Assembly (NCBI GenBank): GCA_029880245.1
Contig: JAOUOR010000006.1
Coordinates: forward strand, 1-46,265
DNA length: 46,265 nt
Source of the DNA: Alphaproteobacteria bacterium
GTDB lineage: Bacteria; Pseudomonadota; Alphaproteobacteria; Micavibrionales; Micavibrionaceae
Direction of reading: 5' to 3'
This document shows positions 22,691-42,314 of the stretch, piece after piece (position 1 is the first letter of the stretch; each line of letters opens with the position of its first letter). The notes below the pieces were generated by a model. The model saw nothing but the letters and a program-made list of their open reading frames with translations. It made no database searches and was not told where the DNA came from. A program made the translations under genes and the position numbers.

Positions 22691-23239
22691 TTATTCATCA
22701 AGCACACGTTTGGATACACGCTCCAGCTCTTCTTGAACAAGACGCTCAATAAGCTTGGGCAGATTTTTATCCAGCCAGTCACGCAGCATAGGCTTGATCT
22801 CACTTCTAACAATATCTTCTAATGTTACGCCGTTATGCTCAATTGCTGTTTTCCGCGCCAGTTGGGTAATAGCATCCAAAGCGGCACTTTCTGCCTTGTC
22901 GGTTAAAAGATGTTCCTCTTCCTCAAGTTCATCAAGTCCATCATCTAAATCGACCATATCGATTTCGATTGGAGATTCACTTTCTTCTTCAACTTTCTCG
23001 GTTAAATCAATGATTTCTTCTTCAGGCTCCGGCTCAGGCTCAGGTTCCGGCTCGGGCTCAGGCTCCGGCTCCGGCTCAGGTTCCGGCTCGGGCTTAGGTT
23101 CCGGCTCGGGTTCCGGCTCAGGCTCGGGAATAGGATCTGCAACTTCCTCATCATCCTCATCAGCAATGATTTGACGAATGGAATCAAGAATCTCTTCGAT
23201 GGATGGTTCTTCTTCGTTTTCTTCAGCAGGTTCGGCCAT
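22691..23239 (-). CDS. popZ: Polar organizing protein PopZ (DUF2497)
   Basis: 182 residues with the PopZ plan. A short N-terminal helix (about 12-28, PSIEEILDSIRQIIADE) binds client proteins; a proline/acid-rich disordered linker follows (here almost pure Pro-Glu between about 38 and 73); the C-terminal oligomerisation helices contain MLRDWLDKNLPKLIERLVQEEL. PopZ forms polar condensates that anchor ParB-parS and cell-cycle kinases in Caulobacter. Length is close to Caulobacter PopZ (177). Usual alphaproteobacterial neighbours are a pcm-like gene and tolC upstream and valS downstream; pcm is here, tolC and valS are not. The Pro-Glu stretch is encoded by a 6-base repeat. Confidence 0.9.
   Translation of the reverse strand: MAEPAEENEEEPSIEEILDSIRQIIADEDDEEVADPIPEPEPEPEPEPKPEPEPEPEPEPEPEPEPEPEPEPEEEIIDLTEKVEEESESPIEIDMVDLDDGLDELEEEEHLLTDKAESAALDAITQLARKTAIEHNGVTLEDIVRSEIKPMLRDWLDKNLPKLIERLVQEELERVSKRVLDE
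23024..23129. repeat. 6-bp simple sequence repeat in popZ (Pro-Glu codons)
   Basis: About 17 copies of a degenerate GGCTCN / GGTTCC hexamer encode alternating Pro-Glu on the minus strand. A unit of 6 keeps the reading frame, so slippage would only change linker length. Confidence 0.85.
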
Positions 23240-29607: not shown

Positions 29608-30999
29608 CTAATCTAGAATCGACTTAAAGTTTTCAGCAAGGTGGTGCAGCATAATCTTGCTGGTTCGCTCATACAAAGAATTCTGTATGTCAATTGACTG
29701 TCCGTAATTTCTGCCTAGTGGTCTGGCGCTGAGTGTATAATGACTGTTATCGGGTATAAAGCGCAGAGAACCAATTGGCATGACAAGATTTAAACTGTGA
29801 TATCTATGCGTAGAACCACCGAAGGCGTCATGATCACGTTTATCGGATAAGACAATATTTCCGCTGAGTTTCGCGCCATTTTCAAAACTTTTATAGGCGC
29901 CGAATTCCACCCCTTTATCACCGGCAAGAAAACGCCCGGCTTTGACATTAAGGGTGACATCATAAACAGGAACATCATACCATAACCCCATATGACCGCT
30001 CAGGCTTGTCTCATCCGCCCAGCTCATATTAAGCGGCGTATGAGGATCGCGCCTGACAACATCCCAAATCTCGCCCCCTAAGGCCAAACGGGAGGTAAAA
30101 GGACGGAATAAAACCTGGGCGCCTGCTCCGATATAAAATTCCTCCAAATAGCCCATATCAAACGATCCATACCATGATGATCCAAGATTGCGGCTGTAAT
30201 TCACATAGGCATGATCAAGCGTTAGAAATCTGTCTGCAAATAAATCTAGGTCACCTTTTGTGATATCTGTACCAGCGGACCTGAGAGCGTTCAAATCTTC
30301 GAGATTATGGGCAAGATTAACGCGCAGAGCCTGATTAATGCTTAAAAAACCTAGAAATCCATCTTGCTGATGCTCTAAAATCAGGGAAGTTCTATGTAAT
30401 AATCCGTGATCTTTTTCTGCCAGACTAACATCTTGCTCCAGATGAAGACCGAATTTATGCTGGTTATAAGGGCTGTTTAGCAGTGTAGCGCTTTCATTAT
30501 ATTCTAAAAACTCGGCATCACTAACTGTAAACTCTGTGTTTTGCCAAATTTCCTGAGGACTCCCGTCATGGGTGATAAACGCGTTTTCAAGATCAGAACG
30601 CAAAAGCGTTATTTTTGGGCCTCTGATATTGGTGATAAAGGGCGTTATCTCTATGACCTTGACGGTTTTATCCGTATCTTTAGCCATAATGCGGGCGGCG
30701 CGACCAATTTGATTCATTGTGGAATGGCGGGAATCCAGTTGCAGCGATGCAGAAACACTTTGATCGCTAAAACTCATATCACGTAAAACAATGTTTTCAT
30801 CTCTAAGTTGTGCCACCTCCTCATCCTCATCCTCATCCTCATCCTCATCCTTTCTTATATCATGAGTTGTGTTTTTTAGACCAAAAGAACCAGTTAGGAA
30901 CGGACTGTCAGAATAACTTTTTGCCATGCATGGCTGGGATGACATGCATAGGAGAGTGGTGCTCAAAAAGCGCAGATGCCTTATATATTTTTGTTGCAT
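29608..30999 (-). CDS. YjbH-like outer-membrane protein (short form)
   Basis: 463 residues. A signal peptide (cleavage near PCMA-KSYS) is followed by an acidic Asp-Glu run (about 53-62), then a region resembling the YjbH domain: beta-rich segments with alternating aromatic residues (GSFDMGYLEEFYIGAGAQVLFRP), AGRFLAGDKGVEFGAYKSFENG and C-terminal LYERTSKIMLHH. YjbH proteins are linked to exopolysaccharide export with YjbEFG in enterobacteria. None of those partners is here, and the protein is shorter than the ~700-residue E. coli form, missing the N-terminal domain. I chose ATG 30999 because it starts a proper signal peptide; an upstream ATG at 31050 would bury it. Confidence 0.7.
   Translation of the reverse strand: MQQKYIRHLRFLSTTLLCMSSQPCMAKSYSDSPFLTGSFGLKNTTHDIRKDEDEDEDEDEEVAQLRDENIVLRDMSFSDQSVSASLQLDSRHSTMNQIGRAARIMAKDTDKTVKVIEITPFITNIRGPKITLLRSDLENAFITHDGSPQEIWQNTEFTVSDAEFLEYNESATLLNSPYNQHKFGLHLEQDVSLAEKDHGLLHRTSLILEHQQDGFLGFLSINQALRVNLAHNLEDLNALRSAGTDITKGDLDLFADRFLTLDHAYVNYSRNLGSSWYGSFDMGYLEEFYIGAGAQVLFRPFTSRLALGGEIWDVVRRDPHTPLNMSWADETSLSGHMGLWYDVPVYDVTLNVKAGRFLAGDKGVEFGAYKSFENGAKLSGNIVLSDKRDHDAFGGSTHRYHSLNLVMPIGSLRFIPDNSHYTLSARPLGRNYGQSIDIQNSLYERTSKIMLHHLAENFKSILD
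30816..30850. repeat. 6-bp simple sequence repeat in the YjbH-like gene (Asp-Glu codons)
   Basis: About six copies of TCCTCA encode alternating Asp-Glu on the minus strand. Variation in copy number would change only the length of the acidic run, not the frame. Confidence 0.85.
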
Positions 31000-31130
31000 G
31001 TCCAACTTACAATCTGTCGGATAGAGGAGGGGTGGAGCCGTCAGGCCCATTATGGATTGTGTCTTAAATACACTTGTGTGTCAAATCTATGATGTGGATA
31101 AGTTGTACTTTACACGTAATACCATCCTAA

Positions 31131-36816: not shown

Positions 36817-39315
36817 TTATGGGAGGTCACTTCCTGCTGCCATTGCACCTTGCGTGCTGACCAGCAAGGTAATTGTGGTGTCTGTATAAATATTAAACGC
36901 TCCATCAGCTGTTGTACCATGATGGATAAAGGTTGTTGTCCCATCATTGACAAAGTCGAAAGTATCATTGGAATCCATTTCGATGACAATTCTATTATTT
37001 TCATCTGTCATGGCCAGAACATCCGAGCGGGATAAAGTAATGGCGTTATTTTGCGCCGAACCCTGCACAGTCGAAATTACCTCGAAATTATGCAGATAAG
37101 TATCATTTATGGCTGTGAAATCTATAGCTCCGGCACTGGCAAATTTAAGCTTGTCGTATCCGCCACCGCCATTAAAATACAAATTGCTGGTTCCAGTAGC
37201 TAAGTCTGCAATACCGGCTGTTGATTGAACTATAAATATATCATTGTCCAACCCTGCGAAAATATGATTACCTGTGCCAGAGTTATAAACAATAGTGTCC
37301 TGACCCTGATCGGTATACACATCATTCGAACTACCGGTTATAGTGACACTATCATTGCCATCATTTGTATAAAGACGGTTATTATTACCACTGATTGAAG
37401 CGCCATCATCGCCAGCACCTAATGAGACTATCTCACTACTGGCAAGACTTGTATTCGTAGTAGAAGTGGCATTAAATGTCTCAAATGTATAATTACTCGT
37501 ACTATCAATTAGATTGCCATTCGCATCATAAGCATGGACAATCAACGTGTATGTATCAGTAGTCACGTTTCCGAAATCCAGATACATAGTACCGGAGATA
37601 GTGATGTTTGCATTTAAAATCGGTCCTGTCGGGAAGCCTGAAATCTGTGTAGACGAGCTATCATACAATTCATAGCTATAAGATGCAATTTTCCCACCCG
37701 GATCATAAAATTCCTTAGAGAAATCATGAGCCCAGCTATTATTATCCGATGCGGAAAATGCGTTGGGACCTGAAGGGGTAACATTTGGACTATGGCCAAC
37801 AAACTGGGCTACTGACTCATCAATTATATTCAAATCAACAATATTTGAAAAAACATGACCATTAATATCTGTGGCTGTAAAATCCAGAGCTATAGGTGAG
37901 CTAGTGTCTAAGATAATATTCGGTTTGGTTACAATTTTGAAAGTTATCGGATCAATTCGTATAACGTCAAAATAGCTTTGTGACAGACCATTTAGCTGCA
38001 GTGTCATGCCGGTTGTAAAATGACCTTTAACAATAGCAACTTCCACGACACCGGTGTTGTGTTCTTCTACCGCCAGACGATTTACGGTGACGCTGAATAT
38101 AGCGGCTATATCACTCGAAGGAGGAGGTGGCAGAGGTTCTTCCGTACTGCCATCCGCGCTCGTGACAAGAGGCTGAAGAATAGGATCATCTGCCAACACA
38201 GGCTCAAGAGAATCATAAATTTGTTCCTCTGTTCCGGACTTAACAATCTCCTCACTCGTGATCATTTCCATTGTAGGATCTAAAAGTTTTGTCTCATTTG
38301 TAACGTTATCTTCAACTAAATTCTGTTCTGGCTGTGTCTCTGCTTCAACAGGGGCTTGAACATTTTGTGTGCTCCCTTGAACATCCGAAGCACTATCTTG
38401 AATAGAAGAAAACAATGTACCATTCACGTTGGATACACTTGTGAATTTTGTAACAACATCATTCGCAGACATCTCGCCCATATATTCAATTGTATTGCTT
38501 TCAGGCATAAATCTGGCGGTTTCATATTGATTGGACAGCGTAACAAAGTTACCTGAAAAGTCCCGCAGGACAATCGCGCCCTCAATGACTGTAATCTCTC
38601 CTGTGTCAACATTACCGGCTATGATTGTTCCGCGAATACCGATTGAACCGGATGGAGTGTCAATCTCCACATCATCCGGATCATCACGCCCGATAAGGCC
38701 GGATGTAAAAACAAACACACCTTTGAGAACAGAAAAATTCGATGAGCCCGATTGTGTGGCCGGATCAAATACATATTCATCAATAGCCAAACGCGCATCT
38801 TCGGACACGGCAAAAGTGGTTTCATCAACAAACATAATATTGACGGCGCCGTCTGCGTCGGTCTCGATGACATCACCCTGATAGATCGGCGTGCCGATAC
38901 TGGCTGTTTCAACTGTGCCATTTGTGCGTGTTACGGTTACATCACCGCTGATTTCCTGCACCGCACCAATAGGGGAGGCATCATTCATGGAATTTCCGGC
39001 ATTGGCATATTGCTGCTCGCCATGGGTAAAGGAATTCACAAGCTCGGGAGTCAACGTCAGGCCATTTGGCGCCACAAGATTAGGGGGCGTAGCATCGGCA
39101 AAGTAATTTTCGATGACGATTGTACCGTGATCGGTTTCCAAAACCAAATCCATGCCATCACGTGAAAAATCAGCATCACGAATATAGCTTTCATCCGGCA
39201 GATTCAGAGAATCTTGTCCGTTTGAAGATATAACCTGATTTTGCCCGGATAGGCTCTCGTGATTGCTCTCGAATAAACCATTATTCTCAGCCGGATCAAA
39301 TACCTTATAAGCCAT
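36817..39315 (-). CDS. FecR-domain surface protein with RTX-like C-terminus
   Basis: 832 residues. The N-terminal part has DLVLETDHGTIVIENYFAD. A FecR domain occupies about 118-260 (VQEISGDVTVTRTNG, GTPIYQGDVIETDADGAV, LKGVFVFTSGLIG, TPSGSIGIRGTIIAG). An acid/Gln-rich linker (~300-400) is followed by two cadherin/Ig-like beta domains (~405-520 and ~525-640). RTX-like Gly/Asp/Asn turns follow (GAGDDGASISGNNN, NDGNDSVTITGSSNDV, about 645-720), and the C-terminal segment AITLSRSDVLAMTDENNR resembles ends of type I-secreted adhesins. No N-terminal signal peptide is evident, fitting C-terminal type I secretion. No ABC/HlyD/TolC genes are nearby. GGGGAG precedes the ATG at 39315. Confidence 0.75.
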   Translation of the reverse strand: MAYKVFDPAENNGLFESNHESLSGQNQVISSNGQDSLNLPDESYIRDADFSRDGMDLVLETDHGTIVIENYFADATPPNLVAPNGLTLTPELVNSFTHGEQQYANAGNSMNDASPIGAVQEISGDVTVTRTNGTVETASIGTPIYQGDVIETDADGAVNIMFVDETTFAVSEDARLAIDEYVFDPATQSGSSNFSVLKGVFVFTSGLIGRDDPDDVEIDTPSGSIGIRGTIIAGNVDTGEITVIEGAIVLRDFSGNFVTLSNQYETARFMPESNTIEYMGEMSANDVVTKFTSVSNVNGTLFSSIQDSASDVQGSTQNVQAPVEAETQPEQNLVEDNVTNETKLLDPTMEMITSEEIVKSGTEEQIYDSLEPVLADDPILQPLVTSADGSTEEPLPPPPSSDIAAIFSVTVNRLAVEEHNTGVVEVAIVKGHFTTGMTLQLNGLSQSYFDVIRIDPITFKIVTKPNIILDTSSPIALDFTATDINGHVFSNIVDLNIIDESVAQFVGHSPNVTPSGPNAFSASDNNSWAHDFSKEFYDPGGKIASYSYELYDSSSTQISGFPTGPILNANITISGTMYLDFGNVTTDTYTLIVHAYDANGNLIDSTSNYTFETFNATSTTNTSLASSEIVSLGAGDDGASISGNNNRLYTNDGNDSVTITGSSNDVYTDQGQDTIVYNSGTGNHIFAGLDNDIFIVQSTAGIADLATGTSNLYFNGGGGYDKLKFASAGAIDFTAINDTYLHNFEVISTVQGSAQNNAITLSRSDVLAMTDENNRIVIEMDSNDTFDFVNDGTTTFIHHGTTADGAFNIYTDTTITLLVSTQGAMAAGSDLP

Positions 39316-39631
39316 TAGCTTCTACTCCCCAAATTCTATACTCTAAAATCTGCCATTTCCCACTTTTATCGGCAGATTATAATAAACTTTTGTATATCCC
39401 TGATATCAGAGTTATACATAGTAATTATAATATGGAAAGTGTTAATACTTTTGTAATATTCGGATAAAATTTAGGCTAAATTTTATGTATAGTCATTTGC
39501 GTTTCTTTTGTGACAGCGTTGCTTCGCTCCTTATGTAGGTTATCTACACGTCGTCGCTTGCGTCTTGTCACAAAATAAAGCCAAATAACTATATTTTTAG
39601 AAGTAAAATCAAAGAATTATACGATTTTTTA
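39316..39631. other. Gene-free stretch with palindrome
   Basis: This 316-base gap lies between the FecR-domain gene start (minus strand) and the end of the CDF gene. The right-hand part holds the long palindrome described separately; the left 39316-39488 is AT-rich and probably contains the FecR-gene promoter, without a match I would defend. No reading frame of interest is present. Confidence 0.6.
39489..39592. repeat. 104-bp imperfect palindrome, possible mobile or REP-like element
   Basis: The outer arms are 27 bases each (39489-39515 and 39566-39592), matching at 23 positions when one is reverse-complemented; the inner 10 bases TTTTGTGACA / TGTCACAAAA are exact. The centre of symmetry coincides with an inner hairpin TGTAG-GTTAT-CTACA (39534-39548). 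The parts between are GC-richer and contain similar GCTTCGC / CGCTTGCG stretches. It lies downstream of the CDF gene, so it could also end that transcript. Confidence 0.6.
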
Positions 39632-40631: not shown

Positions 40632-42314
40632 TTATACGTCAAGGACGGGAAGTTTGGATTCACTCCGGCTCGGGGGAGATTGTGTTAAAGTCTCCCCAAG
40701 CTCAGCAAGTTCCTCACGTATTTCCTTTGTGAGTTTTCTGATCGACGATCCCCCGGGCAAACCTCTACCACTGTTTGTAAGAGTGTTATCCAAATTAGCT
40801 ACAGTTATCTGCCCGGCATAAGGGCCGTATTCGAGGACATAGCTACCACGTTTACCATTCGGAGCTTTAGTAGTGCTATACAGCCATGTGCCGGTGGCAC
40901 GATAATGCGCCAGAAGACTGAGTTTAATCAGGAGAAAATCAAGATCATCCTGATCATGGATGTTTTTATAATCTAGACCATGTTCATCGGAGATTTCTTT
41001 ATTAAGTATAGAAATGGACAATCCTCCAGGCAAACCTCTTATCCTTTGTCTAAGAGCGCTATCCAACGCACCTACCGTTATCTGCTCGGCATAGGGTCCG
41101 TATTTGAGGGTGTAACTACCTTTTTTGCCATCCGGGCCTTTAGTAGTGCTATGCAGCCATGTGCCGGTGGCAAGACGATGCGCCAGCAGGCTGAGTTTAA
41201 TCAGGAGCAAATCAAGATCATCCTGATCATGGATGTTTTTATAATCTAGACCGTGTTCATCGGAGATTTCTCTATTAAGTTTAGAAATGGACGATCCTCC
41301 AGGCAAACCTCTTATCCTTTGTCTAAGAGCGCTATTCAACGCATTTACCGTTATCTGCTCGGCATAGGGTCCGTATTTGAGGATGTAACTACCTTTTTTG
41401 CCATCCGGGCCTTTAGTGTGTCTCGACAACCATTTGCCGGTGGCAAGGCGATGTGCCAGAAGGCTGAGTTTAATTAGTTGCCGATCAAGCGGCGGTTTTT
41501 TGCGGGCAAAAGCGGCAAGATTTTTGACTTTTGGCTTTATCTCTGCGCCTTCCAATATGGCTTTGATTTCCGACCACCAATAATCTTCGTTGTTAAATTT
41601 TATAGCTGTGATATCGGGTCGGGCCTTGAGTTGATCTTTACTAAGAGATTCCCACAGAACGGGGCCGATAATGCGCTGCCCCACAAAGGTTGTTTCGCCG
41701 ACTTGATCGCACACGGCAATTTCTTTATCCAGATGCGGAATTTGTACCAATACATAGGGAAGCTGACGCACCATACGTGGATCAACAGTGCAGGGACGAA
41801 TAATCAGATTATTCGTATGAGTCTTAGTATCCATCTCCTGAAGATGTTTGATCAGCATGGCCAGACGGGGCTGGGTTTCTATTTTAAAACTTTGCCCACC
41901 GCCGGAGGGCGGCTGAATTTTTCCTTCACCTGTTTGTACGAAGGTTTTCGCGGATGGTATGACCAGTGCACCGCCCTTGCGCAATTGTTCAAGAACGTCG
42001 TCCAACTCGGCGTTCTGGAGACGGTCATAATATGACGTAACCTCATTCAGGATATTGGAAATCGTTAGGTTTTCTGGAAGCAAAACTTTATAGGGCAGAG
42101 CGGCATTGGCAAAATTCTCTTCTAAATCTTGGGATTTAAGACCATTATTCATGCCCATAATGAATTTATCCATTTCAACCAAAGGCTCGAAAACTCTTTC
42201 ATATGCCGCTTCCGAACCGTCATAAAGTCGCGCGGCGTCATAGGCACCTTTTAGCCATTGTCCATAGCGCTCACGATCTTCGGGCGTCTTGAAAGGGTTG
42301 GTTTGATCAGTCAT
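40632..42314 (-). CDS. Unknown protein with three tandem 91-residue repeats
   Basis: 560 residues. Residues 1-270 form a non-repetitive region of unknown fold (with PYVLVQIPHLDKEIAVCD and DYWWSEIKAILEG) and no signal peptide. Residues 280-370, 371-461 and 462-540 are tandem repeats with pattern LIKLSLLAHRLATGxWL, TKGPDGKKGSY, LKYGPYAEQITV, LRQRIRGLPGG, EISDEHGLDYKNIHDQDDLD. The third is shorter and more divergent (NSGRGLPGGSS). The TGxW ... ALRxxxRGLPGG layout resembles repeats I recall in large proteins of Planctomycetota; that is memory, not a search. The repeats' basic, small helical character would allow DNA or protein binding. Function unknown. The C-terminus is Ser/Pro-rich. Confidence 0.6.
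   Translation of the reverse strand: MTDQTNPFKTPEDRERYGQWLKGAYDAARLYDGSEAAYERVFEPLVEMDKFIMGMNNGLKSQDLEENFANAALPYKVLLPENLTISNILNEVTSYYDRLQNAELDDVLEQLRKGGALVIPSAKTFVQTGEGKIQPPSGGGQSFKIETQPRLAMLIKHLQEMDTKTHTNNLIIRPCTVDPRMVRQLPYVLVQIPHLDKEIAVCDQVGETTFVGQRIIGPVLWESLSKDQLKARPDITAIKFNNEDYWWSEIKAILEGAEIKPKVKNLAAFARKKPPLDRQLIKLSLLAHRLATGKWLSRHTKGPDGKKGSYILKYGPYAEQITVNALNSALRQRIRGLPGGSSISKLNREISDEHGLDYKNIHDQDDLDLLLIKLSLLAHRLATGTWLHSTTKGPDGKKGSYTLKYGPYAEQITVGALDSALRQRIRGLPGGLSISILNKEISDEHGLDYKNIHDQDDLDFLLIKLSLLAHYRATGTWLYSTTKAPNGKRGSYVLEYGPYAGQITVANLDNTLTNSGRGLPGGSSIRKLTKEIREELAELGETLTQSPPSRSESKLPVLDV
40932..41477 (-). repeat. Tandem 273-bp DNA repeat inside the repeat-protein gene
   Basis: Copies 41205-41477 and 40932-41204 are nearly identical at the DNA level over most of their length: the stretches around 40957 and 41230 (GATCATGGATGTTTTTATAA) are the same with period 273. 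A diverged third copy lies at about 40695-40931. The high identity, including synonymous positions, implies recent duplication or gene conversion. Confidence 0.85.

Follow-up and report, generated by a model that had tools for sequence, protein, structure and literature searches.

A tandem repeat module, probably DNA-binding, in a Micavibrio-like bacterial protein and in viral homing endonucleases and helicases

A small module absent from the catalogues is repeated three times in tandem at the end of a protein from a Micavibrio-like bacterium (P0001), and the same module is found in viral contigs attached to DNA-cutting and DNA-unwinding enzymes. From these partners and its position in them, the module is probably a DNA-binding unit that is used in changeable strings. 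The reading favored here, with a probability of roughly 0.6, is that P0001 carries a DNA-binding array on a non-enzymatic N-terminal domain and serves as a cytosolic, site-specific regulator or accessory factor. The module would be a core of about 70 residues, predicted to form three helices and a loop of isolated beta bridges, and tandem units would each offer the exposed face of helix 2, just before the RGLPGG motif, to DNA. It would direct the GIY-YIG homing endonucleases of viral contigs, and in several SF2 helicases it would be the C-terminal part that grips DNA; in P0001, three units behind a 275-residue domain would provide site-specific DNA binding without enzymatic activity. Duplication and diversification of the inner units within a lineage would then change the target that is bound. 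A repeat with no significant match in the four protein libraries searched is thus common to helicases, homing endonucleases, and P0001, whose function is unassigned, and the shared module gives P0001 its first testable function. It is also a candidate DNA-targeting module whose structure is modelled with confidence and for which a few candidate contact residues can be named.

The gene and its repeat units

The complete gene lies on the minus strand of the window (the whole stretch of DNA analysed, 46,265 nucleotides) at 40632..42314, as one open reading frame of 560 codons with ATG at 42314 and the stop codon at 40632-40634. No obvious ribosome-binding site was seen on inspection of the upstream region. 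The N-terminal domain (residues 1-275; 41490..42314, minus strand) is followed by three tandem units of 91 residues each (residues 276-548) and a C-terminal tail (residues 549-560; 40635..40670, minus strand). In the register set for this study the units, on the same strand, are unit 1 (residues 276-366; 41217..41489), unit 2 (residues 367-457; 40944..41216), and unit 3 (residues 458-548; 40671..40943); the last part of unit 3 degenerates into the tail. Tandem Repeats Finder reported 2.7 copies of 273 bp at 40744-41474 with 87% matches and a score of 1094, far above chance. An earlier note on this DNA had described three tandem units after a 270-residue domain; the open reading frame and the repeat search confirm the arrangement, and the length is corrected to 275. 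A search of the bacterium's own 2.15-Mb genome with the P0001 protein returned a single locus, the gene itself.

Units 1 and 2 are identical at 248 of 273 nucleotides (90.8%) and 79 of 91 amino acids. Of the codons that differ between them, 12 are nonsynonymous and 6 synonymous; the identity is high, but with 25 differing bases the note's "almost identical" was too generous. Unit 3 has 64.1% DNA identity to unit 1 and 69.2% to unit 2. The proposed signature TGxW ... ALRxxxRGLPGG also holds in part: TGxW is present in units 1-3, but ALRxxxRGLPGG only in units 1 and 2, the corresponding position of unit 3 reading TLTNSGRGLPGG. Repeats of this type, which the note likens to a Planctomycetota module, may occur there, and the same motif form is found in proteins of two viral contigs of unassigned host (L055 and L130). 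Relatives have a more compact form of the unit, for example TGRWPTQKSGLVKHGPYANGRITFLALGKALSVGSRGLTGGSSL in L042, and the P0001 units are a variant of it with an insertion (WLSRHTKGPDGKKGSYILKYGPYA). The units had further been called small basic modules, which describes 35 of 59 units (pI above 8) but not the 16 that are acidic (pI below 6.5); in P0001 the pI is 9.69, 7.1, and 9.06 for units 1, 2, and 3, thus not uniformly basic.

A model of two units has a pLDDT of 92.1 and a pTM of 0.63, the latter making the unit-to-unit geometry unreliable. In this model unit 1 has a helix at positions 3-17, isolated bridges, and helices at 48-57 and 68-79. Helix 2 is a candidate recognition helix from the model and the variation described below, and corresponds to residues 323-332 in unit 1 (41319..41348, minus strand) and 414-423 in unit 2 (41046..41075, minus strand).

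Searches of Pfam, PHROGs, NCBIfam, and PADLOC gave nothing significant for either part of P0001. NCBIfam halo_CC_star (E 0.0023) and PHROG 30015 (E 0.0072) were sub-cutoff, covered short stretches only, and were set aside. A PDB sequence search with the A5 profile gave designed TIM barrels (best E 0.0028), dismissed as covering just 14-17 profile positions. Neither the two-unit nor the N-terminal model matched a PDB entry at E 0.001 or better in Foldseek; BFVD likewise had no match within the 0.001 limit; helicases of giant viruses, three in number, appeared at E 1.7-2.0. In VIA structure comparison 35 chains aligned to the repeat units, with a best Z of 2.7, and 999 to the N-terminal domain, with a best Z of 5.7; by the tool's own guidance such scores can reflect no more than a common arrangement. 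Mediator chains matched residues 133-265 weakly (Z 4.4-5.5), and this match was not used. These fold searches do not show a new fold. Literature text searches for the motif string RGLPGG, the phrase "homing endonuclease associated repeat", and Planctomycetes terms returned no match.

Other carriers of the module

Viral contigs in IMG/VR were scanned with five units from the Micavibrio family (A4). One 125-kb contig has three separate open reading frames (L054, L056, and L057) with 4, 3, and 3 units, respectively, behind a GIY-YIG domain. Pfam recognises GIY-YIG in L054 (1.3e-7) and L057 (1e-12), with L056 sub-cutoff at 0.014, and all three match a PHROG homing endonuclease at 1.9e-14 or better. 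A search of phages with L057 matched 340 records; the 15 matches listed all align inside residues 1-203 of L057, for the most part in its nuclease region. A second viral contig encodes a 1035-residue Mrr/SF2 helicase with 5 units (L055; Mrr_cat_2 1.1e-32, ResIII 1.6e-21), and L130 is an array-only viral protein of 5 units with nothing else recognised. A helicase-like protein of 843 residues on a 407-kb viral contig (L131:2973-5501) has an endonuclease-type HTH at its C-terminal end (phrog_6156, 2.8e-6), and its units match weakly (E 1.7 with A3, 7.5e-4 with A5). The bacterial family of the window also has carriers: an SF2 helicase with 6 units (L089; ResIII 1e-18), a 539-residue protein with 3 units (L088), and a 137-residue protein with a single unit (L090), the last two having no recognised partner domain. 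A ParB_N match in L088 (4.6e-4) is sub-cutoff, overlies the repeats, and was set aside.

By sequence comparison, the units of the viral contigs and of the Micavibrio family are a homologous module. An HMM profile made from Micavibrio-family units alone (A3) detects each delimited unit in the three GIY-YIG reading frames (4, 3, and 3), in L055 (5), and in L130 (5), with per-unit E-values of 5.1e-10 to 1.2e-16 in the GIY-YIG proteins (scaled to 1e6 sequences). The same profile listed none of three HA-domain helicases and 12 shuffled controls, even at E up to 1000. Alignment of A3 to A5 with hhalign gave a probability of 99.7 of 100 and E 7.8e-27, an E-value not calibrated to a database, and the per-unit matches weigh more for homology than this value. 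Comparisons of the units with the N-terminal domain and with HA by hhalign had probabilities of 0.1-0.6 of 100.

All five proteins with a confidently recognised partner domain have a nuclease or helicase, which lends indirect support to the note's suggestion of nucleic-acid binding. Since L088, L090, L130, and the Micavibrio N-terminal family have no recognised partner, the link to DNA rests on L054, L055, L056, L057, and L089, together with L131, whose units match weakly. Three known systems are useful for comparison, the first of which is the HA domain (PF03457). The helicase part of L055 matched 709 plasmid records, the best at 49.5% over query residues 34-668; five were inspected, and three Rhodococcus proteins were Pfam-scanned. 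These Rhodococcus plasmid Mrr/SF2 helicases (L123, L124, and L125) have an Mrr_cat_2/ResIII front followed by 8, 5, and 5 HA domains (1e-82 or better), so that two modules without detectable homology occupy one slot. HA units are tandem, 65-73 residues long, and C-terminal in these homologous helicases as the module is in L055, and by eye both have a pattern of helix, G-x-P, W, and helix. Homology was nevertheless rejected: Pfam does not list HA for P0001, ten relatives, L054-L057, L088, L089, L130, or L131, and hhalign with 12 HA units gave a probability of 0.1 against A5 and 0.6 against A3, of 100. With both tests failing, membership in HA is not a fair conclusion; from the position in the helicase, it is fair to suppose that the two modules work similarly. 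A tandem array C-terminal to an SF2 helicase is present in L055 and L089 and absent in P0001, and in contrast to HA the module also occurs behind GIY-YIG nucleases. A search for HA in the order is uninformative: it found 0 of 55, and the controls were equally negative (0 of 14).

GIY-YIG homing endonucleases carry C-terminal DNA-binding NUMODs, as stated in PMC1564403, and the module in L054, L056, and L057 has the same place as the NUMOD, described there as a DNA-targeting module behind GIY-YIG. This position is supported by Pfam for L054 and L057 and by PHROG for all three reading frames, and does not apply to P0001. Pfam found no NUMOD in L054-L057 up to E 10, and none in P0001. Unlike NUMOD, the module consists of 3-4 similar tandem units and is present outside nucleases too.

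Variation within arrays

Variation was studied in an alignment of 59 units from 15 arrays, leaving out the degenerate L043 and L044 as well as L049, L010, L012, L013, L018, L130, and L131. Taking helix 2 together with the next two residues, variation at exposed columns is higher there than at the exposed columns of helix 1 in 11 of the 15 arrays (p 0.0013, Wilcoxon), and higher than at those of helix 3 also in 11 of 15 (p 0.053). The direction is opposite in L006 and the three phage endonuclease arrays, where helix 2 is not above helix 1. To guard against circularity, columns were ranked in 10 arrays and tested on 6 close pairs from 5 others. In the test pairs the top 10 discovery columns had a pN of 0.300, whereas sets of columns drawn at random averaged 0.116 and none of 1000 was as high; random sets include buried columns, so this control cannot separate contact from mere exposure. 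Discovery and test sets also correlate (rho 0.55, p 0.0009) across the 33 columns variable in the discovery set. The nine columns ranked highest in discovery are in helix 2 (41, 37, 40, 45, and 44), helix 3 (61 and 58), two residues past helix 2 (47), and the loop (27).

The cross-validated variable columns have a dN/dS of 0.73 (0.65-0.77 for 8-16 columns) versus 0.30 elsewhere, and the helix-2 face, which was chosen after seeing the data, has 0.98. None of these is above 1; positive selection is therefore not claimed, and relaxed constraint may also account for the variable columns. Taken by itself, the pattern of variation indicates a contact surface that is less constrained or diversifying, and is no proof of contact with DNA. 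Helix 2 is the presumed contact surface, and the homing endonuclease partners together with the variation suggest that binding may be sequence-specific.

The array also appears to have been amplified recently, as the note had proposed: in the unit tree, units 1 and 2 of P0001 are sisters, units 1-3 of its closest relative L041 cluster, and 9 of 15 arrays are monophyletic. Unit 3 of P0001 falls in a clade with unit 4 of L041 and two units of L045, and at the DNA level unit 4 is also the L041 unit closest to it (176 of 273). These groupings suggest that inner units multiplied separately in each lineage after the lineages split, and that the last unit was retained. Among relatives with the P0001-type N-terminal domain, counting delimited arrays with a complete C-terminus and leaving out more divergent or cut arrays, there are 3 units in P0001 and L047, 4 in L041, L006, and L011, and 5 in L042, L048, and L050. 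Periods of the arrays behind this domain range from 75 to 128 residues. Two unit types alternate in the L048 array (L048:418-3183), one of them, the second, with the sequence RLPTREDGPLPDYPDVTW...TTLEKVLIEAGL; mixing of subfamilies within an array may therefore occur.

TALE-like DNA-binding repeats have units of 33-35 residues with a conserved scaffold and few highly variable positions. The module is likewise tandem with a conserved scaffold and few highly variable positions, but its units are about 70-128 residues long and any code for it is conjectural. A bolder idea, speculative and distinctly unlikely on present evidence, is that of an undescribed modular family of DNA readers, in which each unit would read a short subsite through the variable face of helix 2, unit duplication would lengthen, shorten, and rewrite the arrays, and bacterial regulators, helicases, and the homing endonucleases of phages would exchange the cassette. 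If so, a residue-to-base code might be derivable, and modular specificity would make this a further natural system that reads DNA by tandem units.

The N-terminal domain, alternative readings, and the locus

The AlphaFold2 model of the N-terminal domain (pLDDT 85.1, pTM 0.81) has a helical part (about residues 11-113) and, after it, an alpha/beta core (about residues 145-255; 41550..41882, minus strand). It is the core that is matched in the most distant relatives, which have dissimilar N-termini: L035 and L036 from the order, and L138, which belongs to a different family of the class and in which no units were detected. Seven residues are invariant across 14 N-terminal domains (G33, S34, R150, R183, P186, Y187, and P193), and none of them is acidic or a histidine, which makes it most likely that P0001 is non-enzymatic. 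In narrower sets E65 and K226 are invariant (10 members), or K226 and C202 (11 members). P0001 has no membrane segment (maximum KD19 1.23) and no hydrophobic N-terminus; this and the ordinary neighbours of its relatives fit a cytosolic accessory protein, for which a regulatory role may be envisaged.

HA domains at helicase C-termini are usually presumed to be nucleic-acid clamps without sequence specificity, and the module could be such a clamp, with the variation in helix 2 being ordinary drift of an exposed surface. The helicase fusions (L055 and L089), the HA domains in the same slot, dN/dS below 1, and the occurrence of acidic units would all agree with this; however, homing endonucleases need to choose a site, the three GIY-YIG paralogues on one contig differ in their helix 2 residues, and the exposed helix columns vary unevenly, though not in the three phage arrays, so a clamp of this kind is considered rather unlikely. 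It is improbable that the ligand is a protein, RNA, or a polymer of the cell envelope and that the fusions to nucleases and helicases are incidental: while P0001 matches no known DNA-binding family and its N-terminal domain has no known function, every confidently recognised partner is a DNA-acting enzyme, and P0001 has neither a hydrophobic N-terminus nor a membrane stretch.

An N-terminal domain that is an unrecognised nuclease or other enzyme would be compatible with DNA binding by the repeats and would make P0001 a DNA-targeted effector, either a defence or a mobile-element protein. The domain does sit where other carriers have nuclease or helicase domains, it has E65 and K226 invariant in narrower sets, and its presence is patchy, with different open reading frames at the locus of one genus member (G070, below). 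This possibility is nonetheless improbable given the residues that are invariant across all 14 members, the lack of a PADLOC match, and the six scanned neighbours of relatives, which are ordinary chromosomal families with no shared partner (PhzF, LysR, DnaA, T_hemolysin, acyl-CoA dehydrogenase, and YdjM).

Relatives of P0001 are present in 13 of 104 genomes of the window's own family, and in the order the N-terminal profile matches 16 of 142 genomes and the unit profile 11 of 142, own genome included in each count. A contig scan of named genomes with N-terminal-domain patterns only gave ten loci, all in Micavibrio sp. or Alphaproteobacteria MAGs; L041 (Micavibrio sp. UBA5703), on the same contig as L002, belongs to the window's own GTDB family. 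Across the class, the module was found in 1 of 337 genomes, its own, and the N-terminal domain in 2 of 385, its own and one without detectable units. A search of the phylum with the A5 profile found the module in 0 of 398 genomes and is weak, as the threshold applied was one at which A5 fails to detect even the bacterium's own genome. No relatives were found by tblastn of plasmid and phage records, nor any in viral contigs searched with P0001 and with A1.

The gene looks accessory. G070, the genus member with the efflux gene closest to that of the window, retains the FecR-like, cation-efflux, hydrolase, and exonuclease genes of the locus, and between its cation-efflux and hydrolase genes it has other open reading frames, including patatin-like and HMGL-like ones. 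The FecR-like gene of the window (36817-39315, minus strand) encodes a protein of 832 residues in which a FecR domain is recognised (1.9e-10), besides sub-cutoff matches to a BapA prefix (0.0024) and RtxA_C (0.027); it is possibly secreted and adhesin-like. Elsewhere in the window there are short tandem repeats at 23022-23128 (12/18 bp units, inside the open reading frame 22691-23239, minus strand) and at 30818-30851 (6 bp units, inside 29608-31050, minus strand). Beside the cation-efflux gene, an intergenic palindromic element of about 100 bp (39490-39590) resembles REP/MITE repeats: the segment 39485-39600 folds to -33.1 kcal/mol (z -5.2), and the element has 23 matches in the genome, including itself, at 73-100% identity.
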